A stretch of DNA of 38,128 nt from a virus. Positions within the stretch are counted from its first letter, which is position 1, and every line of letters starts with the position of its first letter. The translations under genes and the position numbers were made by a program. The stretch covers positions 1 to 38,128 of the IMG/VR virus record IMGVR_UViG_3300029448_000130; one strand, given 5' to 3'. Below the pieces are notes generated by a model. The model was not told where the DNA came from and did not search any database. It saw only the letters and a program-made list of their open reading frames with translations. This document shows positions 610-23,375 of this stretch, piece after piece.

Positions 610-2298
610 ATGCCTGAAGAAAAAAGACCACGGGGCAGACCCAAGAAAGACCCTGAAGCTCCCAAGGCAGTATACAACCTGTCTAGGAAAGAACGAGCTA
701 GACGCGCTCTACAGGCACGCGTTCGCAAGGCAGAGAGTTCTAAGAAGAAACTACAGAAGAAGTCAAAACAGAAGGCTGAATATGCACGGGTGCTGAAGAA
801 GAGTGCAAAGAAAGTAGAATCAGCCTTGAACCAGAAGGGTACGCGTGTTATAGACATGGACGACGTATCCAACTTACCTTCTACTGTGAAAGAAATAATC
901 GATGATGCACCCATTATATTCAAGCCGAACGAAGGCCCTCAGGAAGAGTTTCTATCTGCGCCAGAGCAGGATGTTCTTTACGGTGGCGCGGCAGGGGGCG
1001 GCAAAAGCTTCGCTCTACTGGCTGACCCTCTCAGGTATTGCCACAACCCTAACCATCGCGGGTTACTACTCCGTCGTACTCTTGATGAACTAACAGAACT
1101 TATAGACAAAGCCAAACAGCTATACCCCAAGGCGTTCCCCGGAGCGACCTTCCGAGAGTCGAAGTCAACGTGGGTCTTCCCGTCTGGGGCAACCATGTGG
1201 TTCACCTATCTCGACAGAGATAAGGACGTAACACGTTTCCAAGGACAGGCTTTCAACTGGATAGGCATAGACGAGATAACCCAGTATCCTACCAGCTACG
1301 TCTGGGACTATCTAAGGTCACGTCTTCGTAGTACAGACCAAGAGCTACAGAAGAACCTCTGTATGCGTTGCACAGCAAACCCCGGTGGTGTTGGTGGCTG
1401 GTGGGTCAAGAAAATGTATATAGATATAGCGGAACACAACAAAGCGTTTCCCGCTGCAGATTTAGAAACAGGCAAACCATTCCTATGGCCTAAGGGGCAT
1501 GAGAGAGAAGGGCAAGCCTTGTTCTATAGAAAATTCGTACCTGCCCGTCTCACAGATAACCCCTATCTGATGGCAGATGGACAGTACGAGGCGATGCTCC
1601 GTTCTCTACCCGACGTTGAGCGTCGTCGACTATTAGAAGGAGATTGGGACGTTGCAGAGGGTGCGGCATTCCCAGAGTTTTCAAGGAGCAAACACGTTGT
1701 CGAACCATTTGATTTACCCACTAACTGGCCTCGAATACGCGCAGCAGATTATGGTTATGCGTCGCCTTCGTGCGTTCTGTGGGGTGCTATTGATTGGGAC
1801 AATAATATTTGGCTATATCGCGAATTATATGTAAAGCACTTGACAGCGGAACAGCTAGCCGATAAAATATTAGAAATGGAGGAGTTAGACCCTCTACCTC
1901 ACTATAATGTCCTAGACTCCTCATGCTGGAACAGGACAGGCTTCGGACCTTCGATTGCAGAGACTATGATGCGTGCTGGTGTTAGATGGACACCATCAGA
2001 CAGAAACAGACTGCAAGGCAAAATGGAATTACACAGAAGACTAGCGGAAGACCCCTATACCAAAGAACCACGTTTACGCATCTTCTCCACTTGTAAACAT
2101 AGCGTCGCACAGATGTCAGGCATTCCGCTGTCCAAAACCAATAGTGAAGACGTTGATACAAAAGCTGAAGACCACGCATACGATGCACTCCGATATATGG
2201 TTATGACACGCACAAGTGGTTATACATCCATACACAAAACTTTGCAAGGTATAAAAGACCAAGCATTTCAACCCTTTGATGCTACTTTCGGATACTAG
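610..2298 (+). CDS. terL: Terminase large subunit (packaging ATPase/nuclease)
   Basis: The DNA-packaging motor protein, 562 residues. The Walker A motif is GGAAGGGKS at 125-133, Walker B with the catalytic acid is WIGIDEI at 217-223, and the coupling motif TANPGG is near 255-260. The C-terminal RNase H-like nuclease shows the expected acids: D380 in AADYGY, D436 in VLDSS, and D521/D525 in EDHAYDALRY. A roughly 100-residue Lys/Arg-rich N-terminal extension precedes the ATPase; its start (RPRGRPKKD, residues 6-14) looks like an AT-hook and the rest is probably a charged helix. The ATG at 610 follows an AGAGAG stretch. The stop at 2296-2298 directly abuts the next ATG, suggesting translational coupling. 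The family assignment is very secure. Confidence 0.97.
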   Translation: MPEEKRPRGRPKKDPEAPKAVYNLSRKERARRALQARVRKAESSKKKLQKKSKQKAEYARVLKKSAKKVESALNQKGTRVIDMDDVSNLPSTVKEIIDDAPIIFKPNEGPQEEFLSAPEQDVLYGGAAGGGKSFALLADPLRYCHNPNHRGLLLRRTLDELTELIDKAKQLYPKAFPGATFRESKSTWVFPSGATMWFTYLDRDKDVTRFQGQAFNWIGIDEITQYPTSYVWDYLRSRLRSTDQELQKNLCMRCTANPGGVGGWWVKKMYIDIAEHNKAFPAADLETGKPFLWPKGHEREGQALFYRKFVPARLTDNPYLMADGQYEAMLRSLPDVERRRLLEGDWDVAEGAAFPEFSRSKHVVEPFDLPTNWPRIRAADYGYASPSCVLWGAIDWDNNIWLYRELYVKHLTAEQLADKILEMEELDPLPHYNVLDSSCWNRTGFGPSIAETMMRAGVRWTPSDRNRLQGKMELHRRLAEDPYTKEPRLRIFSTCKHSVAQMSGIPLSKTNSEDVDTKAEDHAYDALRYMVMTRTSGYTSIHKTLQGIKDQAFQPFDATFGY

Positions 2299-4113
2299 AT
2301 GGCACTTACAGACATAGAATTAGCTCAGAAAGCAAAAAATGGTACGTTCACTTTTGGTGAGGCGATAGAGTTTGCTAAATCAAAGGGTACTAAACTTCAA
2401 AGAACGAGAGCTAATGCTCTGATATCTGGTTCTAAAATAATGGGTATATCCTTAGATACCCCATACAAAGATTTAAGAAAAGACGACATAATAAAACTGT
2501 TTACAGTTGATGGTAGCCCTGATGCTAGCAGTCGTTCATATAATCTTCAACAGGTAGAAAATGTAGTTCGTCCTATTCTGGAACGGTATGGTGCTACAGG
2601 AACTATGGAGAATGTAGCAGAGGGTATTGAAGAGGCTATGTATCCTCGACTTGCGGGGGCTGAAGGTTTAGCAGGAACACAAAGAACTGGACTTGCTGGT
2701 GAACGTCCTATGCGAGGACTTTTACCAAAAGAAGAATTAGATAAGATTTACGCAGAAGCTATTCCTACGGTTGAGAAAGAGTACGGAAAAGCTACTGCAG
2801 ATTTATTAGATTATCACAAAACTACAGCTAACAGACCTGAACAATTATTGGGATTAAAAAAATCTGATGTAAAAATAGCTGGTGACACAATAACAGTGAA
2901 GGGTAAACTAGTTACAAAGAAAGACCATAAAGGTCGCCCTGAACTTTCTTACAATATAAACTCTAGGCTTGGAAGCTTATTAAAGTCGAACTACGATACT
3001 TCTACTTCTGAATATTTGTTTGATGTTACAGACGCAGAATTTACGGAAGCGTTTAACAAGCATGTTAGTCCTAGATTAGAACCTTTTGCTGACGTATTAC
3101 CAGCAAAAGAAAACAAAGTTAGAGGAATTGATGGTGAAACAATTCGTACCTATGAGCCTGTAACAACACCCTCTGCAATTAGGTCTATTATTCCCCGTTA
3201 TATGACAGAACAGCTTAGTATAAATGAAAATTTTGTAGAGGGCATGATGGGTCACGTCAATCCTTCTACATTAAAAAAGTATTACACAGGTTTTGTACCA
3301 CACAAAGATTTAGTTAAGTTAATTGAAAATCCTATAGATTTTGCTGGGGGTGAGTTTAGTAAGTCTAACACATCTCAAGTAAACCTTGACTTAATGACCC
3401 CCGAACAGAAAACACAGATAGCTGAAGAGCAATCAACTACTATTATAGCTGAAGAAAGAGCTAAACAAAGTACAGCTGCTAACATAGAGGCAACGAATAC
3501 TGCAGAACGCACCGCTACTCTAGCGGCTATCACCCCAGAACAAATTCAAGAAGCAAGAGATAACGAAAGGGCTTTGGAAGAAGCTAAGATTGAAGGTAAA
3601 AAAGAGGCTAGACAGAAAACAGTAGCACAACCTGACCCCACATCTGTAGAAGATTTATCTCCAGAATTACAGGAGAAACTAAACAAAGGCGGTTTTGACT
3701 TTAGTAAGTTTATAGGGGACATAGGTAAAACAATCAAACAAGTTGCTTTACCAGTTAGTGTGGCAACAGCCACAGCGGCAAAAAGTATGCTTCCCACACC
3801 TGTTGAGAGTGCAGTAATGGGAATAATTGACCAAGAAAGCATGAAGAAAGCAGGGGAAATAGGCAAAAATATAGGACGAAATATTAGCGGTCAACAGGAA
3901 GGTATAATCCCTGCTTTTGCGGAAGTAATGGGAGTTGGTACAGAGATGGTTACAGGTGCAGTCGCTGATGGAGGAGAAGGTAATCTACAGACTGCAAGTT
4001 TTCTAACAAATCCCGGACTAGGTGTAGCATCAGCTACCATAAGGGCTATCAGAGGGGATAAGGAAACCCCCCCTGCTGATGATATGTACAGAGGTGGTTT
4101 CCTATCTAACTAA
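2299..4113 (+). CDS. Tyrosine recombinase-like protein within the packaging/head module
   Basis: A 604-residue protein whose residues about 25-345 read like a phage integrase. A helical region (25-100) resembles a core-binding domain. The catalytic-like domain has a box I equivalent TANRPEQLLGLKKSDV (R179), a lysine-rich beta hairpin (201-213), a box II-like PSAIRS (R295, with Ser where His is usual), GMMGHVNPSTLKKYYT with H319, and Tyr 328/329 in the nucleophile position. Thus R, K, R, H and Y can be placed but the first box II His is missing. Residues 350-604 are Ala/Glu-rich, then hydrophobic and Gly/Ala-rich near 480-585, unlike an integrase. The gene abuts terL and is more AT-rich than terL and portal. 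It may be a recombinase, or a virion protein built on that fold. The fold call is fairly strong; activity is unproven. Confidence 0.68.
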   Translation: MALTDIELAQKAKNGTFTFGEAIEFAKSKGTKLQRTRANALISGSKIMGISLDTPYKDLRKDDIIKLFTVDGSPDASSRSYNLQQVENVVRPILERYGATGTMENVAEGIEEAMYPRLAGAEGLAGTQRTGLAGERPMRGLLPKEELDKIYAEAIPTVEKEYGKATADLLDYHKTTANRPEQLLGLKKSDVKIAGDTITVKGKLVTKKDHKGRPELSYNINSRLGSLLKSNYDTSTSEYLFDVTDAEFTEAFNKHVSPRLEPFADVLPAKENKVRGIDGETIRTYEPVTTPSAIRSIIPRYMTEQLSINENFVEGMMGHVNPSTLKKYYTGFVPHKDLVKLIENPIDFAGGEFSKSNTSQVNLDLMTPEQKTQIAEEQSTTIIAEERAKQSTAANIEATNTAERTATLAAITPEQIQEARDNERALEEAKIEGKKEARQKTVAQPDPTSVEDLSPELQEKLNKGGFDFSKFIGDIGKTIKQVALPVSVATATAAKSMLPTPVESAVMGIIDQESMKKAGEIGKNIGRNISGQQEGIIPAFAEVMGVGTEMVTGAVADGGEGNLQTASFLTNPGLGVASATIRAIRGDKETPPADDMYRGGFLSN

Positions 4114-4123
4114 GGAGAATAAC

Positions 4124-4342
4124 ATGCCGGGCAATAATTATAACTACGGTGCTTCTTACATCATGGGTGCAGACAAGACTTCAGTCGATGCAAACATGGG
4201 TGAAACTCAACTAACTCGTCAGGGTTTAGAGTTTGATACTCGTGCTAAGACTGACGTTCTAACTGAGGACATGCCGAAGCAACAAACCAAGACTACCGTA
4301 GACCCATCCGTTATGAACATGGCTGAAGAACGCGATTACTAG
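4124..4342 (+). CDS. Small acidic/polar hypothetical protein
   Basis: A 72-residue protein beginning MPGNNYNYGASYIMG and ending MAEERDY. I chose the ATG at 4124, not the upstream one at 4079, because a strong TAAGGAGA ribosome site lies just before it and the upstream start would overlap the preceding gene by 35 bases in another frame. It is polar, has no membrane segment or cysteine, and no motif I recognise. It lies between the recombinase-like gene and another tiny gene before the portal, so a head or packaging accessory role is possible by position only. Confidence 0.75.
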   Translation: MPGNNYNYGASYIMGADKTSVDANMGETQLTRQGLEFDTRAKTDVLTEDMPKQQTKTTVDPSVMNMAEERDY

Positions 4343-4351
4343 GAGAAAACT

Positions 4352-4519
4352 ATGACTAAAAAGATGTCTGCAGATGAGATGATTTCTCGCATCTATAACA
4401 TGACTAGAGGTATGGTTTCACCTAGTTTTGTAAAGGCTGAAATGAAAACTCGTAAATCTAGTGGCGGTGTCACCAATAGAAAAATGGGTGGTAAAATACC
4501 TGCTAAGAAAAAGAAGTAA
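4352..4519 (+). CDS. Tiny basic protein with KMGGKIPAKKKK-type tail
   Basis: A 55-residue ORF: it starts MTKKMSADEMISRIYNMTRG and ends in a GGKIPAKKKK tail. An AGGAG ribosome site at 4341-4345, partly formed by the stop codon of the previous gene, precedes the ATG at 4352. The next gene (portal) starts two bases after its stop. The Met/Gly/Lys-rich tail resembles those of the proteins at 72-596 and 36536-36874. There is no known domain. The tight spacing and ribosome site argue that it is real; function unknown, possibly nucleic-acid or virion binding through the basic tail. Confidence 0.72.
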   Translation: MTKKMSADEMISRIYNMTRGMVSPSFVKAEMKTRKSSGGVTNRKMGGKIPAKKKK

Positions 4520-4521
4520 AT

Positions 4522-6633
4522 ATGTCAGAAGATAACTTCCTTCAACCTGAAGACGATACCACCATCTCTCTTGTAAATCCTGAAGAGCAGTTTCCCGGAC
4601 TTGCGGGGTATGTTCAGGCTAAGTACAAAGAGGCTGAGACAGGACGGTATGCTCACGAGCAACGTTGGCTACAGGCATACAAGAACTTCCGTGGTATCTA
4701 CGACTCTTCCACACAGTATAGAGAGTCGGAAAAGTCTAAGGTGTTCGTCAGGATAACCAAGACTAAGGTTCTTGCCGCCTACGGACAGATTGTAGACATA
4801 TTGTTTGCAAACAAAAAGTTTCCGCTAGTGGTGCAACCAACTCCTGTGCCTGAGGGCATAGCAGAGTTTGCCCACATGGAAACACCCCTAGACCAAGCAC
4901 CACCTCAAGACCCTTTTGGTTTTGCTGGGGATGGTCGGCAACTTCCCCCCGGAGCGTTGCAGGCAGATTTTCTAGGTGGATTGAAGGAAGAATACGCTGG
5001 TCTACCACTAGCTGAAGGTCCATCCAAACTTGGAGAACCTCAGATAAGCCCAGCACAGAAGGCTGCGTTGCGAATGGAGAAAACTATCCATGACCAGCTT
5101 CTTGACACAAATGCGGTAAACGTCTTTCGTAAGACTATATTTGAGTCAGCACTCTTAGGCACAGGTATTATCAAAGGTCCTATGAATTTTTACAAGCGCA
5201 TCCACCAGTGGAAGCGTAGTGAGGAAGGGCAACGAGAATACTCCCCCTATGAGAAGACTGTTCCACGAGTAGAAATGGTATCTGCGTGGGACTTTCATCC
5301 TGACCCATCTGCTACAAGCATAGATGACTGTGAGTACGTCATAGAACGTCACAGGTTTAACAGACAACAGCTACGTGCGCTTATAAAGCGACCCTACTTT
5401 AGGGCAGAAGCGATTGAAGAGACACTAGCTAAAGGTCCTAACTATGAGGATAAGTATTATGAAGATGCTATCCGCGAGGACGAAACAGAAGCGTATGCCT
5501 CTGAGAATAGATATGAAGTTCTAGAATACTGGGGAGTCTTGGACTATTATCTAGCCAAGGAAGCAGGCTTCAAAGAAGCAGATACAATGTCAGAGTTCGA
5601 TGAACTACAGGTGAACATCTGGGTTTGTGGCAACATGATATTACGCTGTGTTCTTAACCCATTTACTCCAGCACGTATCCCGTACCATGTGTTTCCCTAC
5701 GAGGTAAACCCCTATCAGCTATGGGGTGTTGGTGTTGCAGAGAACATGGAAGATGCACAGAAGCTAATGAATGGTCACGTTCGTATGGCGATTGATAACT
5801 TAGCTCTTGCGGGTAACTTGGTGTTCGACGTAGACGAAGCAAGCCTTGTCCCCGGTCAGAACATGGACATATTCCCCGGAAAAATCTTCCGAAGACAGTC
5901 GGGGGTTACTGGTACGGCTATCAACGGTTTGAAGTTTCCAAACACTGCAGGCGAGAACTTGCAGATGTATCAGATTAGTAGACAGCTAGCTGACGAAGAG
6001 ACAGGCATACCGTCCATTATACACGGACAGACAGGCGTTACAGGCACAGGACGCACTGCGGCAGGACTATCCATGCTAATGGGGTCTGCAGGGCTTTCTA
6101 TGAAGACTGTAATAAAGAATATAGACGACATGTTACTGAAACCACTAGGAGAGGCTTATTTTCAATGGAACATGCAATTCAACGACGATGCTCCCGATAT
6201 TGTGGGGGACTTGGAGATAAAACCGAGGGGTGTTGCTGCTGTAATGCAGAAGGAAGTGCGGAGTCAGAGGCTTACAACCCTCCTGCAGACTGTCGCAAAC
6301 CCGATGCTTGCGCCCTTTATCAAGATACCTAACTTAATGCGAGAACTTGCTATCTCTCAGGACATAGACCCTGATAGTTTAGTTAATGATGCCAACGAAG
6401 CGCAACTATACGCTAAGATGTTACAAGGAATGATGGCAAATGCTCAACAAGAAGCAAGCGCAGAAGCTAGCCCCGCTGGTGCAGGGCAAGGAATGGGAAC
6501 TCCTGAGGGAGTACCTGATGGACCTCAGGGAACTGACGATTCAGGGCGTGGTAACGGCACAATCGGAGTCGGAACTTCTCCGAGCGCAGGGGAAGCTGGG
6601 TTTACTGGAAATGCTCCTCAAACTCAAGAGTAG
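4522..6633 (+). CDS. Portal protein (head-tail connector)
   Basis: The dodecameric portal through which DNA enters and leaves the head, 703 residues, close to P22-type portals (about 725). Features expected of the family are an N-terminal helical segment with AHEQRWLQAYKNFRGIYD, a VFVRITKTKVLAAYGQIVDILF stretch, a wing/stem region, and the conserved TGIPSIIHGQTGVTGTGRTAAG loop that precedes a long helix (ALSM-like, near residues 510-540). The C-terminal 60 or so residues are Gly/Pro/Ser/Ala-rich and probably disordered; that part overlaps another gene in a different frame. Its position after terminase and before the scaffold gene fits. Base composition is noticeably higher in GC than the flanking accessory genes. 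Confidence 0.92.
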   Translation: MSEDNFLQPEDDTTISLVNPEEQFPGLAGYVQAKYKEAETGRYAHEQRWLQAYKNFRGIYDSSTQYRESEKSKVFVRITKTKVLAAYGQIVDILFANKKFPLVVQPTPVPEGIAEFAHMETPLDQAPPQDPFGFAGDGRQLPPGALQADFLGGLKEEYAGLPLAEGPSKLGEPQISPAQKAALRMEKTIHDQLLDTNAVNVFRKTIFESALLGTGIIKGPMNFYKRIHQWKRSEEGQREYSPYEKTVPRVEMVSAWDFHPDPSATSIDDCEYVIERHRFNRQQLRALIKRPYFRAEAIEETLAKGPNYEDKYYEDAIREDETEAYASENRYEVLEYWGVLDYYLAKEAGFKEADTMSEFDELQVNIWVCGNMILRCVLNPFTPARIPYHVFPYEVNPYQLWGVGVAENMEDAQKLMNGHVRMAIDNLALAGNLVFDVDEASLVPGQNMDIFPGKIFRRQSGVTGTAINGLKFPNTAGENLQMYQISRQLADEETGIPSIIHGQTGVTGTGRTAAGLSMLMGSAGLSMKTVIKNIDDMLLKPLGEAYFQWNMQFNDDAPDIVGDLEIKPRGVAAVMQKEVRSQRLTTLLQTVANPMLAPFIKIPNLMRELAISQDIDPDSLVNDANEAQLYAKMLQGMMANAQQEASAEASPAGAGQGMGTPEGVPDGPQGTDDSGRGNGTIGVGTSPSAGEAGFTGNAPQTQE

Positions 6634-6688
6634 CCATGAGGCTGTAGTACAAAATCAAAGGGAAGATGATACCTTCATCTATGAGTAA
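6440..6688 (+). CDS. Small helical protein overprinted on the portal 3' end
   Basis: An 82-residue ORF in the +1 shifted frame overlapping the last 194 bases of the portal gene and running on for 55 bases. Its protein looks real: GKEWELLREYLMDLRELTIQ followed by SESELLRAQGKLGLLEMLLKL gives two amphipathic helices, similar in style to the short helical proteins that follow portal genes in other phages. The portal frame over the same DNA is low-complexity Gly/Pro/Ser. AAGGA at 6425-6429 could serve the ATG at 6440. The stop overlaps the next start (TAATG, 6686-6690), as expected for a coupled gene. A function in head assembly is inferred from position only. Confidence 0.75.
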   Translation: MLNKKQAQKLAPLVQGKEWELLREYLMDLRELTIQGVVTAQSESELLRAQGKLGLLEMLLKLKSSHEAVVQNQREDDTFIYE

Positions 6689-9234
6689 TGATAGCAGATA
6701 GAATTAGTATACCACGAATAGGTCTACCAAGGGCTGAACCTACTACGTTTACATACACAGGAGCTACTGCTCTTACTCCTGAGCAGTATCAATCTCAGTT
6801 TGTAAACTATGCTAATCAATACGTAGGTTTGCCGTCCTTAGAAAAAGAAACAGGAATATCTGTAACAGCACCTACTGTTGAAGAAGTTCAAACGGGTAGG
6901 ATGGTAAAGGATGACGATGATAACACAGACCCATTTATAAAGGCAGGATTAGCTACTGAAGATATAAGTTTTGGTATTGACAGCCTAGTTAATACTGACA
7001 CAGGTTTTGAGTTTAAGAACAAGGGTAACTTTAGCACATATGCAGACTATCTAAAGGGAACAGGAAAAGCTGACCGTGTAGATATTGTAGAAAACTTATA
7101 TTCTCCTATTATGGAAGGTAATTTTAAAGACATAAATTTATCTGAGGCAGATTTATTTTCAAGCTTAAGAGATGCGCCTAAAGAACTTAGGGAAGATGTT
7201 AAGGGTCTTTCTAAGACTTTTAATGAACAGGGAGTAAAAGGAGTAGTTGAAAAGTACGGTGAACCTGTTGCTAAAAAGGTTTTATCTACGGCTACTGGGG
7301 TTATGATGGGGCCACTCGCGGGGGCAGGACTGTCAGGTATTCTTGGGGGAGAAGCAGAAACAAGTGTAGTAACAGGCAAACCTTCTTTTCGTCCAACGGG
7401 TATTTTAGGAGCTTTCTATGATTTAAATGCTACTAGACAATTTCAAGATGTGCTTCATATTCGTGCCGTAGAAGAGGCAAGCTTACAAGCTGGGAATTAT
7501 TTTGATACTGACGTAGGTTTTGCTGTGGGAATAGGAAACTTTGGAATTACGCGTCGTCCCGGAGCAAATACGTATACAGGTAACAGAAGAGGTATGTCTC
7601 ATAAACAGATAAAAGACCTTGAGGCAATATCTAAGGGTTATCTTCCAGAGTCGTACAGATTTACTCACGATAAGGACGGGCAGGATAGCTTTTTCTTGTC
7701 TGGGGGTACAAAAATAAATCAACGTATATCTGATGATGGGGGTTTGATGGTAGACCCTGATGACCCTATGGCGGGTTTTTATAAGGGAGACGGAACATTC
7801 TACAGTCCTAGATTTGGTTATTCTAAGTACGGAATGAGAAAGGATATCCAAAATCTTGCTGATAAGTATGGTATTAATACTACCCTAGCAGAACAGGCAC
7901 TAGAAGATGCAAGGGCAGGTAAGGGTACACTAGCAGGTAATATATTTAAGATTAAACGAGATAGTGCTGATAAAGATGAGAAGGGTGACTCAAGTTTTGT
8001 GCCTACCCCTAGACCTCCCGTTCCTCAAGAACCCTTCAAAGGCTCTAGGGTTCAGAAGTCTATTCAAGATGATAAAGAAGCTAAAAGTAAAAAGATAGAT
8101 AAGGCAATACAAGAAGCTGCCTCTGATTATGCTCTTGGCATAGCTAAAGGCGGTTTCATAGGCATGAACAATGGTGGTTCAGTGCCTTCTGAATCAGGTT
8201 TTGTAGATGGTGTACCCCCTAGTCAGACCACAGACGCGCAAGAGGTAGCAGATGACAGACCAACCCAACTACCTGAGGGGGCATTTGTATTAAATGCGTC
8301 ATCTGTAGAGTTTGCAGGAGAGCAGGACATATCCAAGATGCTCTTCGATGCTCACGAGGAAGCACTTCGCAGAGGAGTAGTATCACAGGGTACGTCAGGA
8401 GAAGCTACTCGTAAGATGATTGACGTTGCGGTGTCTCGTGGTGAAGTTGTTGTAGCTCCCTATATGGTAAAAATTATTGGTCTTGACCGCTTAGAAAAAA
8501 TAAACAAGCGAGGCATTAGGGATACTGAGCGTAAGATACAGGAGAATGGTCAACAACCTCAGGGAGCGGCAAAAGGTGAACTCATAACCGTTTATAGAGG
8601 AGAACCCCTAGACCCTGATGCGTTAAAATACAAAACTAACTATGGGTATGGGGAAGAAGATGTAGGAAAGTTTCATACTCCTAACATTAATAAGGCAAAA
8701 ATATATTCAAGAGGTAGTCCGTTAGACGGGACAGAAGTAGAAAAAGGTAATAGAGTAATTAAGAGTAGAATAGTCACTATAGACGAGTTGTTTGACGGTG
8801 TCAAAGATGCATGGAGAACACATGCTAAAGCGAAATCAGATTACTTTGCAAAAATGCCAAAATCAGAATTACAAAGAAATTTGGATTATGTTGATGCTCT
8901 AAGAGCAGAAGTTAAAAGTAATAAAGTTGGTCGTCGTTCTATGGAAGACTTAGTATTTTTTCTTCAAGAACAAGTATTTCACGATGATAAATCCAAGATA
9001 AATTTTATAGAAACATTTAAAAACGACCCAAAAACTGCATTTAAGTTAGCAGCTAGAGCTATGACTAAAATAGCTACTAAAATAACACCACCAGTTGCTA
9101 TTTTAGAAATAGCACTAGGAGCATTTGATGCCACCCCTGTTGCGGATGCAACTCTAAAATCTACATACCGTTCTACGCAGGGAGATGAGGAAATATCGAA
9201 GCTCATACAGGATGAATCGTTTTTAACACGATGA
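6688..9234 (+). CDS. Large protein with recurrent PEGAFVLN motif and possible ADP-ribosyltransferase-like segment
   Basis: An 848-residue protein between portal and scaffold. Residues 1-450 are polar with a Gly/Ala-rich stretch near 200-222 (TGVMMGPLAGAGLSGILGG). A Gly-rich linker (GGFIGMNNGGS) leads into a block from about 525 to 610: LPEGAFVLNASSVEFAG, then GEVVVAPYMVKIIG and LEKINKRG. I recognise this block as recurrent in marine phage proteins but not with an assigned function. From about 630 to 700, ITVYRGEPL, KFHTPNINKAKIYS and RVIKSRIVTIDELF resemble the R and S strands of ADP-ribosyltransferases carried by virion proteins; the ExE catalytic motif is not evident. A hydrophobic helix lies near 795-815. 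Possibly an injected multidomain protein; enzymatic activity is uncertain. Confidence 0.6.
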   Translation: MIADRISIPRIGLPRAEPTTFTYTGATALTPEQYQSQFVNYANQYVGLPSLEKETGISVTAPTVEEVQTGRMVKDDDDNTDPFIKAGLATEDISFGIDSLVNTDTGFEFKNKGNFSTYADYLKGTGKADRVDIVENLYSPIMEGNFKDINLSEADLFSSLRDAPKELREDVKGLSKTFNEQGVKGVVEKYGEPVAKKVLSTATGVMMGPLAGAGLSGILGGEAETSVVTGKPSFRPTGILGAFYDLNATRQFQDVLHIRAVEEASLQAGNYFDTDVGFAVGIGNFGITRRPGANTYTGNRRGMSHKQIKDLEAISKGYLPESYRFTHDKDGQDSFFLSGGTKINQRISDDGGLMVDPDDPMAGFYKGDGTFYSPRFGYSKYGMRKDIQNLADKYGINTTLAEQALEDARAGKGTLAGNIFKIKRDSADKDEKGDSSFVPTPRPPVPQEPFKGSRVQKSIQDDKEAKSKKIDKAIQEAASDYALGIAKGGFIGMNNGGSVPSESGFVDGVPPSQTTDAQEVADDRPTQLPEGAFVLNASSVEFAGEQDISKMLFDAHEEALRRGVVSQGTSGEATRKMIDVAVSRGEVVVAPYMVKIIGLDRLEKINKRGIRDTERKIQENGQQPQGAAKGELITVYRGEPLDPDALKYKTNYGYGEEDVGKFHTPNINKAKIYSRGSPLDGTEVEKGNRVIKSRIVTIDELFDGVKDAWRTHAKAKSDYFAKMPKSELQRNLDYVDALRAEVKSNKVGRRSMEDLVFFLQEQVFHDDKSKINFIETFKNDPKTAFKLAARAMTKIATKITPPVAILEIALGAFDATPVADATLKSTYRSTQGDEEISKLIQDESFLTR

Positions 9235-12544: not shown

Positions 12545-12744
12545 TGGCGGCAGAAACGATATTAAAATACAAGATAGTACCACGCTTGATGATGCTTGTG
12601 ATGACAGTGATGTATATAAGAGTTATCGAGTGGGGGATGTCCTTAGAAGACTTGAGTACACAGCAGAGTGCAATGATAAGCGTCGTCTCAGGTGCAATGA
12701 CGGGGGCGTTTGCAGTGTGGTTAGGGTCGGAGACTAAGAAATGA
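12544..12744 (+). CDS. Small two-helix membrane protein in the lysis cassette
   Basis: A 66-residue protein with a first hydrophobic segment around PRLMMLVMTVMYIRVIEW and a second in MISVVSGAMTGAFAVWLG, separated by an SLEDLSTQQS loop. The start overlaps the holin stop and the stop overlaps the lysozyme start (ATGA), so it is translated in the same cassette. It could be a second holin, an antiholin or a holin-associated factor. The sequence does not distinguish these options. Confidence 0.75.
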   Translation: MAAETILKYKIVPRLMMLVMTVMYIRVIEWGMSLEDLSTQQSAMISVVSGAMTGAFAVWLGSETKK

Positions 12745-13193
12745 ACCTAGATAAACTGAGAGAAGAACTGGCTGAAGACGAAGGCTGTAAGTATGAGATA
12801 TACCTTGACCATTTAGGATTGCCTACATTCGGGATAGGACATTTAATAACAAAAGATGACCCTGAATACGGCAAGGATGTAGGCACTGTCATAGAACAGG
12901 GTCGTGTGCAGTCTGCATTTAATCTTGATATCACTGTTACAATAGAAGACTGCCACAGGCTCTATAAGAACTTTGATGAGTTACCTGAAGAAGTACAACT
13001 AATTGTTGCGAACATGATGTTCAATCTTGGTTATCCACGTCTGTCCAAGTTCAAGGGTATGAAGGCAGGAGTTGATGCTAAAAGCTGGTCTTCTGCAGCC
13101 GATGAGATGGTCGACTCGCGTTGGTATACGCAAGTACCCAACCGCGCACGACGTTTGGTAGACAGGATGAGACAAGTAGGTAGAGATGGCTAA
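12741..13193 (+). CDS. Endolysin: T4-type lysozyme (glycoside hydrolase 24)
   Basis: A 150-residue muramidase that cleaves the N-acetylmuramic acid to N-acetylglucosamine bond of peptidoglycan. The active-site layout of T4 lysozyme is intact: E14 in EDEG, D23 in YLDHLG, and T29 in PTFGIGHLITK, followed later by NMMFNLGYPRLSKFKGM and WYTQVPNRARRLVDRMR near the C-terminus. Length is close to T4 lysozyme (164). There is no signal peptide or anchor, so it needs the holin to reach the periplasm. It overlaps the preceding gene by four bases and the next gene by eight. Confidence 0.95.
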   Translation: MNLDKLREELAEDEGCKYEIYLDHLGLPTFGIGHLITKDDPEYGKDVGTVIEQGRVQSAFNLDITVTIEDCHRLYKNFDELPEEVQLIVANMMFNLGYPRLSKFKGMKAGVDAKSWSSAADEMVDSRWYTQVPNRARRLVDRMRQVGRDG

Positions 13194-16946: not shown

Positions 16947-19900
16947 ATGGGAGCTACATATACTAGACAATCTTCGTATACTGATGGCGATACTATCACT
17001 GCCGCACATACTAATGATGAGTTTAATCAGTTATTAGCGGCCTTTGCCGCAAGCACAGGGCATACTCACGATGGCACTGCGGGTGAGGGAGGTTCTGTCA
17101 CTACACTACTAGGTAATACCCTTTCGTTTGGTGATGGTACTACTGACGCAGACATAGTTATTACATTTAATGCTAATAATAATGATGGTGTTCTATCGTG
17201 GAAAGAAGATGAAGATTATTTTGAATTTTCTGATGACATACTTCTTGCTACTGCAGAAAAATTACAATTCCGTGATACCGCAATATACATTAACTCAAGC
17301 ACGGATGGACAATTAGACCTCGTAGCGGATAGTGAAATACAGTTAGCCGCCACAACTATAGACATCAATGGTAACGTAGATATTTCTGGTACACTAACTA
17401 TAGGTGGTGCAGGTATATCTGAAGCTGAACTTGAGGTACTAGATGGCGCAACAGTAACTACTGCTGAATTAAATATCATGGATGGTGACACATCCGCATC
17501 TGCTACTACTGTAGTTGACGCAGACCGTGTTGTATTCAACGATGATGGAACTATGAAACAGGTGGCGGTCACTGACTTAGCCGCCTATTTTGATGACGAG
17601 ATTACGGCTATGCCTAATCTTGTTACTACTGCAGCCACCACTGTAGGGGCATTAAACTCTGGTTCTATCACATCTGGCTTTGGAACTATCGATACTGGCT
17701 CATCTACAATTACAACTACAGGGCTAATATCTGGTGGCTCACTTGATATTGATGACGTACTCATTAACGGTGCAACGATTGGACATACAGACGATACAGA
17801 TTTGATTACACTAGCCAATGGTGTTGTTACGGTGGCTGGAGAAATATCTGTCACTACTCTAGACATAGGTGGCACGAACGTAACAGCCACTGCCGCAGAA
17901 CTTAACATACTTGATGGCGTAACATCTACAGCGGCAGAACTTAACATACTAGATGGTGTAACATCTACTACTGCGGAGCTAAACATACTGGATGGTGTAA
18001 CGTCTACTACTGCGGAGCTAAACATACTGGATGGTGTAACGTCTACAGCAACAGAACTAAGCATCGTAGACGGGGACACAAGTGCAACATCTACTACTGT
18101 AGTGGATGCAGATAGAGTTGTACTTAACGATAACGGAACTATGGTACAGGTGGCAGTTACAGACTTAGCTGCTTATTTTGATGATGAAATTACGGCTATG
18201 CCTAATCTTGTCACAACAGCGGCCACTACTGTAGGCGCGTTAAACTCTGGTTCTATCACGTCTGGCTTTGGTACGATTGACACTGGCTCATCAACAATTA
18301 CAACCACTGGATTAATATCTGGTGGTTCACTTGATATTGATAACGTACTTATTAACGGTACAACTATAGGTCATACAGATGATACAGATTTAATCACCCT
18401 AGCTGATGGTCTTGTCACTGTAGCTGGAGAGATATCTGTCACTACTCTAGATATAGGTGGCACAAACGTAACAGCTACTGGTGCTGAATTAAACATACTA
18501 GATGGTGTAACGTCTACTGCCGCAGAGCTAAACATATTAGATGGTGTAACATCTACTACTGCGGAGCTAAACATACTAGACGGTGTAACGTCTACTGCCG
18601 CAGAGCTAAACATACTTGATGGTGTAACATCTACTACTGCGGAGCTAAACATATTAGATGGTGTAACATCTACTACTGCGGAGCTAAACATACTAGACGG
18701 TGTAACGTCTACTGCCGCAGAGCTAAACATACTAGATGGTGTAACATCTACTACTGCGGAGCTAAACATACTAGATGGGGCTACCGTTGTTGTAGGTGAA
18801 ATAAACGCTTTAGATTTAGGTTCAACAGCAGTTGGAACTGCTATAGCGTCTAAAGCGATGATACTTGATTCTAACAAAGACTATACAGGAGTTAGAAACT
18901 TTACACTAAGTGGTGAGTTAGACGCAGGCAGTTTAGATGTATCAGGAAATGCTGACATTGACGGTACGCTTGAAGCTGATGCTATCACTGTCAATGGCAC
19001 TGCTCTTAACACAGTTATTGCAGGGGTAACAGTAGCTAATGCTACTCTAGCGGCAACTACTACTGTCACAAACAGCACAGCCAACACAAACTTTCCTGTT
19101 GTGTTCCACGACGAATCTGACGCTCTATTAGATGACACAGGCGCACTTAGGTATAATCCAAGCACAGGGACGTTACTTGTGCCTAACCTATCTGTAGCAG
19201 GTACAACCACAACGGTTGATACTGTCACAATGCAAGCGGCTAACGCTATTATATTTGAGGGTGCTACTGCGGATGCTAACGAAACGACGTTATCAATTGT
19301 CGACCCGACAGACGATAGAACAATTAATTTACCGAATCAGTCAGGAACATTGCCCGTACTAGCAGTTGCTAGTAACACAGCGATTACATCTACACCAGAA
19401 GAACTTAATACCCTAGACGGCATTACTGCTGTAGTAGGTGAGCTTAATGCTCTTGATTTGGGTTCTACGGCTGTAGGTACAGCTATAGCGTCTAAAGCGA
19501 TGATACTTGATTCTAACAAAGACTATACAGGAGTTAGAAACTTTACATTAAGCGGTGAGCTAGATGCAGGAAGTCTAGATATATCAGGAAACGCAGATAT
19601 CGATGGTACACTAGAAGCTGATGCCATCACGGTTAATGGAACAGCACTAGCTACCGTCATTGCGGGAACAACAGTAACTAACGCTACAAACTCTGCCCAC
19701 GTACTAGTGACTGACAATGAAAGTACAAACGAAGAAAACTTAATTGCCTTTGTAGAGGGTGCTACGTCAACCACAGGCAACGTAGGCTTGGAGATGGATG
19801 GCACTCTAACTTACAATCCAAGTTCAGGAACAGTTACTGCCACCGTATTTAAAGGCAATATTGATGCTGTAGATGGTGACTTCGATGGTACTCTAGAAGC

Positions 19901-22900
19901 CGACGCTATTAGCATTGGTGGAACTACTATTACTTCTACAGCGGCAGAACTTAACATACTTGATGGCGTAACATCTACAACGGCAGAACTTAATATACTT
20001 GATGGCGTAACATCTACAACGGCAGAACTTAACATACTTGATGGCGTAACATCTACAGCGGCAGAACTTAACATACTAGATGGTGTAACATCTACAGCGG
20101 CAGAACTTAATATACTTGATGGCGTAACATCTACAGCGGCAGAACTTAACATACTAGATGGTGTAACATCTACAGCGGCAGAACTTAATATACTTGATGG
20201 CGTAACATCTACAACGGCAGAACTTAATGCACTTGATGGCATTACTGCTGTAGTAGGTGAACTAAACGCTCTTGATTTAGGCTCAACAGCAGTTGGTACA
20301 GCCATAGCTTCTAAGGCAATGGTACTTGATTCCAATAAGGATTACACAGGAGTTAGAAACTTTACACTTAGCGGTGAGTTAGATGCAGGCTCATTAGATA
20401 TTTCTGGTGATGTAGATGTTGATGGCACACTAGAAACTGATGCGTTATCCATAGCAGGTACAGCAGTGTCAGCCACAGCCGCAGAATTAAATATTCTAGA
20501 TGGTGTTACGACTACTGCCGCTGAAATAAACTTAATAGATGGAGGTACAGCTAGAGGCACAACTGCAGTAGCAGATGGCGATGGCGTGCTTATAAATGAC
20601 GCAGGAACAATGCGTATGACTAAAGTAGATACGCTTTCCACCTATATGTCAGGTAAGAGTGTTGGCGGTTCAAATATAGTTACTACAGGTGCATTAAACA
20701 GCGGAAGCATAACATCTGGTTTTGGAGCTATAAATAATGGTGAATCTGCGATTACAACAACAGGCACTATAACTTTTGGCAGTATATCTGATGGCACAAT
20801 TACTGCCACAGCCTTTGTAGACGAAGATAATATGGCTTCTGATTCAGCTACGCTTATACCCACACAACAGTCTGTTAAGGCTTACGTTGATGCCAATGTC
20901 GCTAGTGGTGCTATGACTAGCTTTCAACTTGAGGATGACGATGGCACTGAAGTAACAATCAATAATGCTAAAGAATTAAAAATTATCGGTTCTGGTGTTA
21001 CAACAAACTTCACAGATACGTCCACAGGTTCTAATGCCGACCCATTTGATTTAACTATAACGGTGGATGCGGCACAGACAGGTATAACATCTGTGAAGAA
21101 TGCTAGTCTTGCTATTGGTAGAGACAACGATAACCTTATTAAATTTAGTACTGATAATCAGATTATATTTGAGGTAGCAGGTGGTGACAACGTAATATTT
21201 AAAGCTAGTGGTGAGATTGAAGCAAGTAGCCTAGATATTAGTGGCGATGTAGATGTTGACGGCACACTAGAAACAGATGCCATTAGTATTGCTGGTACAG
21301 CTATTACGTCAACTGCCGCAGAACTTAACATACTTGATGGCGTAACATCTACAGCGGCAGAACTTAATATACTTGACGGTGTAACATCTACAGCGGCAGA
21401 ACTTAACATACTTGATGGTGTAACATCTACAGCGGCAGAACTTAACATACTTGATGGCGTAACATCTACAGCGGCAGAACTTAATGTGCTAGATGGTATT
21501 ACTGCTGTAGTAGGTGAGCTTAATGCGCTTGATTTAGGCTCAACAGCAGTTGGCACTGCGATAGCATCTAAAGCTATGATACTTGATTCCAATAAAGACT
21601 ACACAGGTGTAAGAAACTTTACATTGAGTGGTGAGCTAGATGCAGGAAGTTTAGATGTATCGGGCAACGCTGATATAGATGGTACACTTGAAGCCGATGC
21701 TATTACTGTTAATGGTACTGCTCTTAACACGGTTATCGCAGGTGTAACAGTTACTAACGCTACAAACTCTGCTCACGTCTTAGTAACCGATAATGAAAAT
21801 ACAAACGAAGAAAACTTAATTACTTTTGTAGAGGGTGCAACTTCTAGCACAGGCAATGTTGGCTTAGAAATGGATGGCAACTTTGCCTACAACCCAAGCA
21901 CAGGTACAGTTACTGCTACCATATTCAAGGGTAACATAGATGCTGTAGACGGGGATTTTGACGGTACGTTAGAAGCAGATGCTATTAGTATTGGTGGTAC
22001 AACTATTACGTCAACTGCGGCAGAACTCAATGCCCTCGACGGTATTACGGCTGTAGTAGGCGAACTCAACGCTCTTGATTTAGGTTCAACAGCAGTTGGC
22101 ACAGCCATAGCTTCTAAGGCAATGATACTTGATTCTAATAAAGACTACACAGGGGTCAGGAACTTTACACTAAGCGGTGAACTTGATGCAGGCTCATTAG
22201 ATATTTCTGGAAATGCCGATATTGACGGCACTTTAGAAACTGATGCGCTTTCAATAAACGGCACTGCAGTCACTTCAACAGCCGCAGAACTGAATATCTT
22301 AGATGGCGTTACTAGCACAACAGCAGAACTAAATATCTTAGACGGTGTAACATCTACAGCAGCAGAACTTAATATATTAGATGGTGTAACATCCACAGCA
22401 GCAGAGTTAAATATTTTAGATGGCGTTACTAGCACAACAGCAGAACTAAATGTCCTTGATGGTATTACTGCTGTGGTCGGAGAGCTTAACGCTCTTGACT
22501 TAGGTTCAACAGCAGTTGGAACTGCTATAGCATCTAAGGCTATGATACTTGATTCTAATAAAGACTATACAGGGGTTAGGAACTTTACACTTAGTGGTGA
22601 GTTAGACGCAGGTTCTTTAGATATATCTGGTGATGCTGATATAGATGGCACGTTAGAAGCTGATGCTATTACAGTCAACGGCACTACATTAGCTGAAGTT
22701 ATTGCTGATACAACTGGTGCGATGTTCTCTAGCAACACAGAAACGGGTATTACCGTTACTTATCAGGATGCAGACAATACAATAGACGTAGCTATAAACG
22801 CGGCACAAACTACTATAACATCACTCCTTGCCGCTGATATTAAAATTGGTGAAGATGACCAAACTAAAATTGATTTTGAGACAGCAGATGAGATACACTT

Positions 22901-23375
22901 TTATGCGGCAAACGTAGAGCAGGTTTATCTTGGAGATAATATTTTTGGGCCTCAATCTGACAGTGATGTGGACTTGGGCAGTAATAGCGTACGTTGGAAG
23001 GATGCATACGTTGATAGTGCGACTGTTACTGGTGATGTAGCAGTAGGGGACGATATTACTGTGGCAGGTAGAGCATCTGGTCATGTAACGGCAGATAACG
23101 ATGGTAGTTTTGATTTAGCTGTAGGTAATGATTTTAAATGCACACCTACTGGTAACTTCACCCTAACATTTACTAATCCTACCGCTGGGCAATCAGGTAA
23201 CGTAATGCTTGTTAACTCAGGGGGTCACACTGTTTCGGCACACGCTTCTGTAGCAATAAATGCAACAATACTAACAGCCCTAACAACAGCAGGTACGTAT
23301 CACCTTGCCTACTATTGTAGTGCAGATAGTGGTAATGACACAATTCTAGTATCGGCATCAGCCGCCCTATCATAA
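16947..23375 (+). CDS. Giant repeat-rich tail fibre protein
   Basis: A 2142-residue acidic, Thr/Ala/Asp/Gly-rich protein with no long hydrophobic segment. The N-terminus has DGDTITAAHTNDEFNQLL and a GHTHDGTAGEGG motif, common at the virion-proximal end of marine phage fibres. Most of it is built of 13-residue repeats (AELNILDGVTST with variants) in five main blocks, alternating with larger modules: six copies of a roughly 75-residue unit (GELNALDLGSTAVGTAIASK, then DSNKDYTGVRNFTLSGELDA, then ADIDGTLEADAITVNG) and duplicated longer spacers. The last 80 residues (NDFKCTPTGNFTLTFTNPT onwards) form a beta-rich cap with few repeats. It likely forms a long trimeric fibre for host contact. The receptor is unknown. 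Confidence 0.85.
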   Translation: MGATYTRQSSYTDGDTITAAHTNDEFNQLLAAFAASTGHTHDGTAGEGGSVTTLLGNTLSFGDGTTDADIVITFNANNNDGVLSWKEDEDYFEFSDDILLATAEKLQFRDTAIYINSSTDGQLDLVADSEIQLAATTIDINGNVDISGTLTIGGAGISEAELEVLDGATVTTAELNIMDGDTSASATTVVDADRVVFNDDGTMKQVAVTDLAAYFDDEITAMPNLVTTAATTVGALNSGSITSGFGTIDTGSSTITTTGLISGGSLDIDDVLINGATIGHTDDTDLITLANGVVTVAGEISVTTLDIGGTNVTATAAELNILDGVTSTAAELNILDGVTSTTAELNILDGVTSTTAELNILDGVTSTATELSIVDGDTSATSTTVVDADRVVLNDNGTMVQVAVTDLAAYFDDEITAMPNLVTTAATTVGALNSGSITSGFGTIDTGSSTITTTGLISGGSLDIDNVLINGTTIGHTDDTDLITLADGLVTVAGEISVTTLDIGGTNVTATGAELNILDGVTSTAAELNILDGVTSTTAELNILDGVTSTAAELNILDGVTSTTAELNILDGVTSTTAELNILDGVTSTAAELNILDGVTSTTAELNILDGATVVVGEINALDLGSTAVGTAIASKAMILDSNKDYTGVRNFTLSGELDAGSLDVSGNADIDGTLEADAITVNGTALNTVIAGVTVANATLAATTTVTNSTANTNFPVVFHDESDALLDDTGALRYNPSTGTLLVPNLSVAGTTTTVDTVTMQAANAIIFEGATADANETTLSIVDPTDDRTINLPNQSGTLPVLAVASNTAITSTPEELNTLDGITAVVGELNALDLGSTAVGTAIASKAMILDSNKDYTGVRNFTLSGELDAGSLDISGNADIDGTLEADAITVNGTALATVIAGTTVTNATNSAHVLVTDNESTNEENLIAFVEGATSTTGNVGLEMDGTLTYNPSSGTVTATVFKGNIDAVDGDFDGTLEADAISIGGTTITSTAAELNILDGVTSTTAELNILDGVTSTTAELNILDGVTSTAAELNILDGVTSTAAELNILDGVTSTAAELNILDGVTSTAAELNILDGVTSTTAELNALDGITAVVGELNALDLGSTAVGTAIASKAMVLDSNKDYTGVRNFTLSGELDAGSLDISGDVDVDGTLETDALSIAGTAVSATAAELNILDGVTTTAAEINLIDGGTARGTTAVADGDGVLINDAGTMRMTKVDTLSTYMSGKSVGGSNIVTTGALNSGSITSGFGAINNGESAITTTGTITFGSISDGTITATAFVDEDNMASDSATLIPTQQSVKAYVDANVASGAMTSFQLEDDDGTEVTINNAKELKIIGSGVTTNFTDTSTGSNADPFDLTITVDAAQTGITSVKNASLAIGRDNDNLIKFSTDNQIIFEVAGGDNVIFKASGEIEASSLDISGDVDVDGTLETDAISIAGTAITSTAAELNILDGVTSTAAELNILDGVTSTAAELNILDGVTSTAAELNILDGVTSTAAELNVLDGITAVVGELNALDLGSTAVGTAIASKAMILDSNKDYTGVRNFTLSGELDAGSLDVSGNADIDGTLEADAITVNGTALNTVIAGVTVTNATNSAHVLVTDNENTNEENLITFVEGATSSTGNVGLEMDGNFAYNPSTGTVTATIFKGNIDAVDGDFDGTLEADAISIGGTTITSTAAELNALDGITAVVGELNALDLGSTAVGTAIASKAMILDSNKDYTGVRNFTLSGELDAGSLDISGNADIDGTLETDALSINGTAVTSTAAELNILDGVTSTTAELNILDGVTSTAAELNILDGVTSTAAELNILDGVTSTTAELNVLDGITAVVGELNALDLGSTAVGTAIASKAMILDSNKDYTGVRNFTLSGELDAGSLDISGDADIDGTLEADAITVNGTTLAEVIADTTGAMFSSNTETGITVTYQDADNTIDVAINAAQTTITSLLAADIKIGEDDQTKIDFETADEIHFYAANVEQVYLGDNIFGPQSDSDVDLGSNSVRWKDAYVDSATVTGDVAVGDDITVAGRASGHVTADNDGSFDLAVGNDFKCTPTGNFTLTFTNPTAGQSGNVMLVNSGGHTVSAHASVAINATILTALTTAGTYHLAYYCSADSGNDTILVSASAALS
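17889..18075 (+). repeat. 39-bp tandem repeat block 1 in the fibre gene
   Basis: Four AELNILDGV units followed by a divergent TATELSIVDGD unit. The unit is 39 bases. Neighbouring copies differ mainly at synonymous positions, two of them being almost identical at the DNA level. Confidence 0.9.
18477..18782 (+). repeat. 39-bp tandem repeat block 2 in the fibre gene
   Basis: Eight AELNILDG units, the longest uninterrupted block. Copies here share GCGGAGCTAAACATA or GCAGAGCTAAACATA spellings, unlike block 3, and alternate TST-T and TST-A links. Confidence 0.92.
19932..20241 (+). repeat. 39-bp tandem repeat block 3 in the fibre gene
   Basis: Seven AELNILDGV units plus a final AELNALDG unit. Spelling is GCAGAACTTAACATA or GCAGAACTTAATATA. 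The middle copies alternate CTTGATGGC and CTAGATGGT, giving a 78-base higher-order dimer. Confidence 0.92.
21306..21501 (+). repeat. 39-bp tandem repeat block 4 in the fibre gene
   Basis: Four AELNILDGV units and a terminal AELNVLDG unit, spelled like block 3 (GCGGCAGAACTTAACATAC), all with TSTA links. Confidence 0.9.
22272..22464 (+). repeat. 39-bp tandem repeat block 5 in the fibre gene
   Basis: Four AELNILDGV units and a terminal AELNVLDG unit, with yet another spelling (GCAGAACTAAATATCTTAGA, GCAGAGTTAAATATTTTAGA). The protein sequence matches the other blocks closely while the DNA does not. Confidence 0.9.

Follow-up and report, generated by a model that had tools for sequence, protein, structure and literature searches.

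The slot directly behind the terminase large subunit gene (terL) in a clade of common uncultured marine phages is a hypervariable allelic cassette, found throughout the clade and exchanged between near-identical phages, and the proteins it encodes form a real, conserved and, as judged from their sequences, very probably catalytic family of tyrosine recombinases. This clade-wide character of the slot is the main point of the present analysis and goes beyond a sequence-only reading of a single ORF (2299-4113), which had described a tyrosine recombinase fold with a long C-terminal extension placed between terminase and portal. That observation is confirmed, and its interpretation, which offered a packaging-linked resolvase, an injected recombinase or an exapted structural protein, is partly supported.

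The window, that is, the whole stretch of 38,128 bp analysed here, has a GC content of 41.5% and represents part of the genome of an uncultured phage. Its TerL is ∼48–58% identical to the TerL of HMO-2011-type podoviruses (CRP-9, HTVC115P, HMO-2011), and the source phage is an uncultured relative of that group. Genes in the window follow one another in the order TerL, slot gene, two small ORFs, SU10-type portal and large post-portal protein, and then a protein at the scaffold position, the major head protein, and tail and fibre genes (Table 1). The ATG of the slot gene begins on the base directly 3' of the terL stop codon, which bears out the odd position, abutting terL inside the morphogenesis block, that the sequence-only reading had pointed out. 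On the other side of terL, directly 5' of it, lies a LysM protein gene (72-596), in a region without match in the nearest 36-kb relative of the window. Elsewhere, a phage lysozyme domain (PF00959) is encoded at 12741-13193, a 2142-aa fibre-like protein at 16947-23375 contains TAELNILDGVTST-type repeats by the dozen, and a 1664-aa protein at 31538-36532, of a size compatible with an internal protein of the virion, gave no significant PHROG match.

Table 1. Positions in the window of the slot gene, its parts and candidate catalytic residues, and the neighbouring genes
Feature	Position	Strand	Evidence or remark
Terminase large subunit (TerL)	610..2298	+	PF03237 E=3.5e-8; PHROG_979 E=1.1e-63
Slot gene, 604-aa putative tyrosine recombinase with C-terminal linker and tail	2299..4113	+	
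Core-binding and catalytic domains, ~residues 1-348	2299..3342	+	Part swapped between phages
Arg-I, R179	2833..2835	+	Invariant in 82/82 members and 27/27 held-out HMM matches
Box II first residue, Ser292	3172-3174	+	In place of His
Arg-II, R295	3181..3183	+	Invariant in 82/82 members and 27/27 held-out
Box III residue, H319	3253..3255	+	H 40 / R 42 among 82
Candidate Tyr nucleophile, Y329	3283..3285	+	Invariant in 68-member alignment
Long helical linker, residues 368-442	3400..3624	+	AF2 secondary structure, pLDDT mostly 78-94
C-terminal tail, residues 446-604	3634..4110	+	Common to different recombinase types
Terminal tag GGFLSN	4093..4110	+	Sister-phage DNA homology restarts at G600 (4096)
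Two small ORFs	4124-4342, 4352-4519		Both between recombinase and portal
Portal protein, SU10-like	4522..6633	+	PF23899 E=7.9e-29
Post-portal protein	6688..9234	+	Constant middle ~481-640 with GGFI motif, variable ends

Profile matches of the slot protein to integrase models are weak, both to Pfam PF00589 (Phage_integrase; E=1.2e-4, under its gathering score) and to PHROG_1 (E=3.9e-5), and on their own 25/68 and 38/68 family members, respectively, match the Pfam and PHROG models; a sequence search of solved structures returned chance matches only. Nevertheless, the integrase match is not due to chance, since all of 82 diverse representatives, the set on which the residue counts given here are based, have R179 and R295 together with either His or Arg at position 319. 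In a second alignment of 68 members, with a mean identity of 15%, R179, R295 and Y329 were the sole invariant columns. The held-out set consisted of 37 non-redundant proteins that were <80% identical to those used for training; default HMMER filters let 27 of them match, all with both arginines kept, and the other 10 matched at E 5e-11 or better when the filters were switched off, several of these divergent proteins showing R, R, H and Y in order when read. The arginines and the histidine named by the sequence-only reading stand as described, whereas of its two adjacent tyrosines Y329 is the conserved one and Y328 is replaced by Asn in close relatives. The first alignment placed Tyr in the Y329 column in 69/82 members, and the remaining 13, with Phe or Met at that column, might have been taken for a subclade that had lost the nucleophile; this was rejected, as each of them keeps a Tyr four residues upstream and realignment makes the column invariant, the spacing between box III and the Tyr being different among types. 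The reading had named the lack of any profile or structure match, and random substitution at R179, R295 and Y328/329, as grounds against a recombinase, and neither was seen.

The catalytic set is atypical in one respect, since the replacement of the box II histidine by Ser, already noticed in the window protein, extends to the entire family: the first residue of box II is S in 40 members, Y in 15, K in 8, A in 7 and others in the rest, with His in 0/82. The absence of this histidine is not strictly disqualifying, because KxxR and YxxR integrase variants are known from archaea (PMC8371274), though the mechanism could be weakened or altered, given that it is missing family-wide. With regard to the lysine of the β-hairpin, the candidate K203 lies 24 residues after R179, and a K-G-R stretch is invariant within one type, the alignment of the hairpin across types being poor; the β-hairpin Lys of XerD occurs at the same 24-residue spacing from Arg-I. 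Within types, the recombinase part had a median ω of 0.08, which indicates strongly purifying selection, and the tail one of 0.34.

In the AF2 model of the window protein, residues 1-475 were for the most part predicted confidently, and 477-604 without any confidence. Foldseek and VIA-align comparisons of residues 9-363 matched XerH, archaeal Xer (XerA), lambda Int, SSV1 Int and type IB topoisomerases, with Foldseek E values down to 7e-5 and VIA Z scores ranging overall from 9 to 11.6 (10–11.6 for Xer and lambda Int and 9.8 for SSV1 Int). A second recombinase type, modelled separately and with less confidence (mean pLDDT 62.6), matched Tn1549 Int, lambda Int, Brujita Int and XerH, and its structural matches also included the phage regulators MrpR and SroF, which have recombinase folds. 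According to these models, the catalytic domain is predicted to have the fold of the tyrosine recombinase superfamily, in agreement with what had been proposed from the sequence. When profiles of the window type and type A4 were compared, the tails aligned and the catalytic parts did not, so that a common fold for both types is suggested by the separate models and the catalytic residues. The models also refine the description of the C-terminal region: the 250 residues that had been noticed are present, and they appear to comprise a helical linker (368-442) followed by a disordered tail (477-604), the region as a whole being only mildly rich in Ala (12.2%) and Gly (9.1%) where an Ala/Gly-rich tail had been described.

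The slot gene is obligate in one fixed position across the clade. IMG/VR loci were gathered with TerL, portal or slot protein as query, cultured phages being left out, and all 94 distinct TerL–portal gaps contained one gene of 530–790 aa right behind terL. By their N-terminal part these proteins fell into one cluster in BLASTP comparisons (94/94), and iterative HMM searches recovered 92/94. Fishing by one recombinase type, without TerL, yielded 69 further loci, 67 of which have a clade TerL immediately upstream, the remaining two being contigs without TerL. A further set of 138 TerL loci gave a complete slot ORF in 111, the rest being without portal match, and none of the 138 had TerL and portal but no slot ORF. 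Among cultured relatives, HMO-2011 and CRP-9 are without slot gene at the same position, HTVC115P has small ORFs only, and unrelated genes occupy the position in phiM6, a more distant phage. Several types were also used as tblastn queries, and none revealed a relative of the slot protein in cultured phages. We found no description of a tyrosine recombinase between TerL and portal in the literature searched, which covered subscription journals to a small extent.

Despite its fixed position, the content of the slot is extremely variable. The median pairwise identity was 81% for TerL and 79% for the portal versus 17% for the N-terminal part of the slot protein, and slot sequences formed 15 types at 40% identity and 45 at 70%. 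In 86% of the pairs with TerL ≥97% identical (n=37), the slot domains were <35% identical, and five pairs with 100% identical TerL carried recombinase domains of 14–25% identity. Flanking DNA in the closest sister pairs was up to 99.7% identical. This homology broke off close to the start codon of the slot gene, in most cases at +6 to +8, and picked up again within the tail, sometimes not before the last GFLSN codons. When the window was compared with its 36-kb relative, homology ended at 2303 and restarted at the G600 codon, with 95% identity along 4096-4341. The converse case also occurs, with domains >90% identical joined to tails ∼40% identical. Besides, the GC content of the recombinase part was below that of TerL in 73/73 loci (median −6.7 points).

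What the types have in common is the C-terminal tail. Profile comparison with a nearer type aligned the whole length (E=7e-26), and between types hhalign matched residues 446-604 at 95% probability (E=4.5e-8) and 546-604 at 96.8% (E=2.3e-10). A GF, SF or NF tag occurs within the last 12 aa in 71/82 members versus 11 expected. The tail contains no strong transmembrane segment and no packaging signal recognisable by homology; a resemblance to the N-terminal capsid-targeting sequence of T4, which belongs to another phage group, would not be expected. A similar motif, GGF[LIVM], appears in 50/67 relatives of the post-portal protein versus 5 in shuffles. The post-portal gene is a second polymorphic gene in the block, with a constant middle and variable N- and C-terminal modules, and 2/10 of the relatives scanned had Pesticin/lysozyme-like or Hydrolase_2 (cell-wall hydrolase) domains, as would be expected for virion proteins acting on entry. 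A homologous tail common to recombinase and post-portal proteins was considered and rejected, as they share the short GGF motif with no convincing alignable homology; the motif is at most a suggestive connection between both genes.

The fold of the predicted models, the conservation of catalytic residues, the fixed position, the swapping of alleles and the common tail are directly supported by the data. Taken together with them, the explanation we favour, to which we would give about an even chance, is that of a modular tyrosine recombinase, catalytically competent and probably carried in the virion, whose DNA specificities are interchangeable, rare or new ones being favoured by selection. We infer its enzymatic activity, its late expression, its packaging, its time of action and its target. 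The protein would be a site-specific recombinase probably made late along with the packaging genes, and built from an exchangeable N-terminal part, which binds DNA and catalyses the reaction, joined to a common linker and a GF-tagged tail. Tail and tag might put the recombinase into the virion, from which it would enter the cell together with the phage DNA and, early in infection, cleave and rejoin a specific DNA site, the candidate targets being the incoming phage genome (e.g. for circularisation) or the DNA of a host or competitor. Many unrelated versions could then be kept in circulation among near-identical phages, as selection would favour specificities that are rare or new. Virion carriage is suggested by the position in the packaging block, the common terminal tag and a likeness to the internal-protein hotspot of T4; late expression fits a late-acting enzyme as well, and core-site-like palindromes, which occur at chance level (see below), speak against the favoured explanation too. 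More tentatively, and with less than even confidence, the packaging-block slot of the clade may be viewed as carrying interchangeable virion-delivered recombinases that amount to a polymorphic set of DNA-targeting internal proteins. Diversifying selection would maintain this set, and its members would act early, on DNA of the phage, its host or a competitor. Among the three functions put forward by the sequence-only reading, the injected recombinase, as a candidate, fits best.

The lack of a second integrase in the clade records searched, mostly fragments, and the Pfam and PHROG matches would also suit an ordinary lysogeny integrase shifted into the late block, whose allele diversity would reflect host attachment sites and whose attP would lie inside the cassette. 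Two near-complete clade genomes, one of 56,796 bp and one of 54,901 bp that ends in 91-bp direct repeats, have one PF00589 match each, the slot gene, and no other integrase, and in the other records any PF00589 match agrees with the slot ORF in its location or in the length of its frame. Furthermore, the wider group can be temperate, as HMO-2011 has a canonical integrase of its own at another locus (302-aa open frame, PF00589 E=1.2e-21), in line with published data (PMC9038755, PMC6918029), and CRP-3 integrates at tRNA-Met (PMC6918029). However, HMO-2011 subgroups without canonical int are considered probably lytic (PMC9038755), the slot gene sits in the packaging block, and the window has no tRNA genes, tRNA T-arm pattern or Rfam families, nor any tRNA-like stretch. 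Likewise, a scan of 84,980 species genomes of bacteria and archaea, with only two short patterns each time, detected no relative of the recombinase or of TerL, and we regard a lysogeny role as unlikely. The complete-looking 54,901-bp genome has genes for DNA polymerase A, ribonucleotide reductase and a DnaB-like helicase as well as DUF932/DUF7178 genes, with no lysogeny gene among ten proteins scanned. Annotation pipelines could miscall such phages as temperate from the slot gene.

The remaining alternatives appear weaker. A late-acting resolvase clearing genome multimers or branched DNA ahead of packaging by the adjacent terminase, the packaging-linked function of the sequence-only reading, is possible and would agree with the predicted Xer-like fold and the location directly behind terL in every member, but it leaves allele swapping unexplained: a housekeeping enzyme for the own genome should track its phage, and the alleles of phages whose TerL is identical are unrelated. 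Packaging in close cultured relatives proceeds in the absence of the slot gene. The search for a candidate site gave none, core-site palindromes (11-bp arms, spacer 5–9) being rejected at chance level with 2 found versus 0–5 in shuffles; we consider such a function quite improbable. Sharp replacement boundaries and the lower GC in all 73 loci might instead evoke a selfish cassette that recombines itself into the slot and is carried for its own spread. Yet flanking homologous recombination of non-homologous cassettes gives sharp edges anyway, so that site-specific exchange is not proven, the presence in 94/94 loci is unlike that of homing elements, and no direct or site-like repeats mark the cassette boundaries in the window, the direct or inverted repeats around the slot amounting to weak two-copy matches at most. 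We consider a selfish cassette slightly less probable still. Finally, because the second type matched MrpR and SroF in structure, we also weighed exaptation of the recombinase fold for a structural or DNA-binding role without catalysis, of the kind known from these SPbeta/phi3T regulators, for which the 13 members with a displaced Tyr in the first alignment could likewise speak. All 13 keep a Tyr one helical turn earlier, and the exapted structural protein of the sequence-only reading seems hardly credible, since invariance is confined to the positions of the catalytic Arg and Tyr residues and purifying selection within types is strong.

Tyrosine recombinases are usually regarded as enzymes of lysogeny or chromosome maintenance, and here one constitutes an obligate, hypervariable member of the structural block in common uncultured marine phages. 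If delivered with the DNA, it would represent a new class of injected enzyme, and either way at least 15 natural types (45 at 70% identity) on a common tail would supply new DNA specificities.

Several known systems share part of these features. Simple tyrosine recombinases such as Xer and archaeal XerA, composed of core-binding (CB) and catalytic (CAT) domains, have the same two-domain fold with Arg-I, Arg-II, His/Arg and Tyr, but unlike them the slot family is devoid of the box II His, bears ∼250 extra C-terminal residues and is hypervariable at one locus. Archaeal integrases of the SSV1 (R..KxxR..Y) and pNOB8 (R..YxxR..Y) types have the box II His replaced likewise (PMC8371274), and these archaeal-style boxes occur in 8 (KxxR) and 15 (YxxR) slot proteins; in contrast to both types, about half of the slot family has SxxR, and its members appear in a bacterial podovirus context with no integration evidence. 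The HMO-2011/CRP integrase offers a parallel as a tyrosine integrase of the wider phage group, but it is encoded upstream of the replication module, gives a strong canonical PF00589 match and has no tail. A parallel in genetic organisation is offered by the T4 internal proteins Ip1-Ip3, which are injected and whose hotspot alleles have the packaging leader alone in common (PMC12373910). Both systems combine divergent bodies in one hotspot with a common terminal segment, although in the slot family that segment is C-terminal and the bodies, here proposed to be packaged, are all recombinases.
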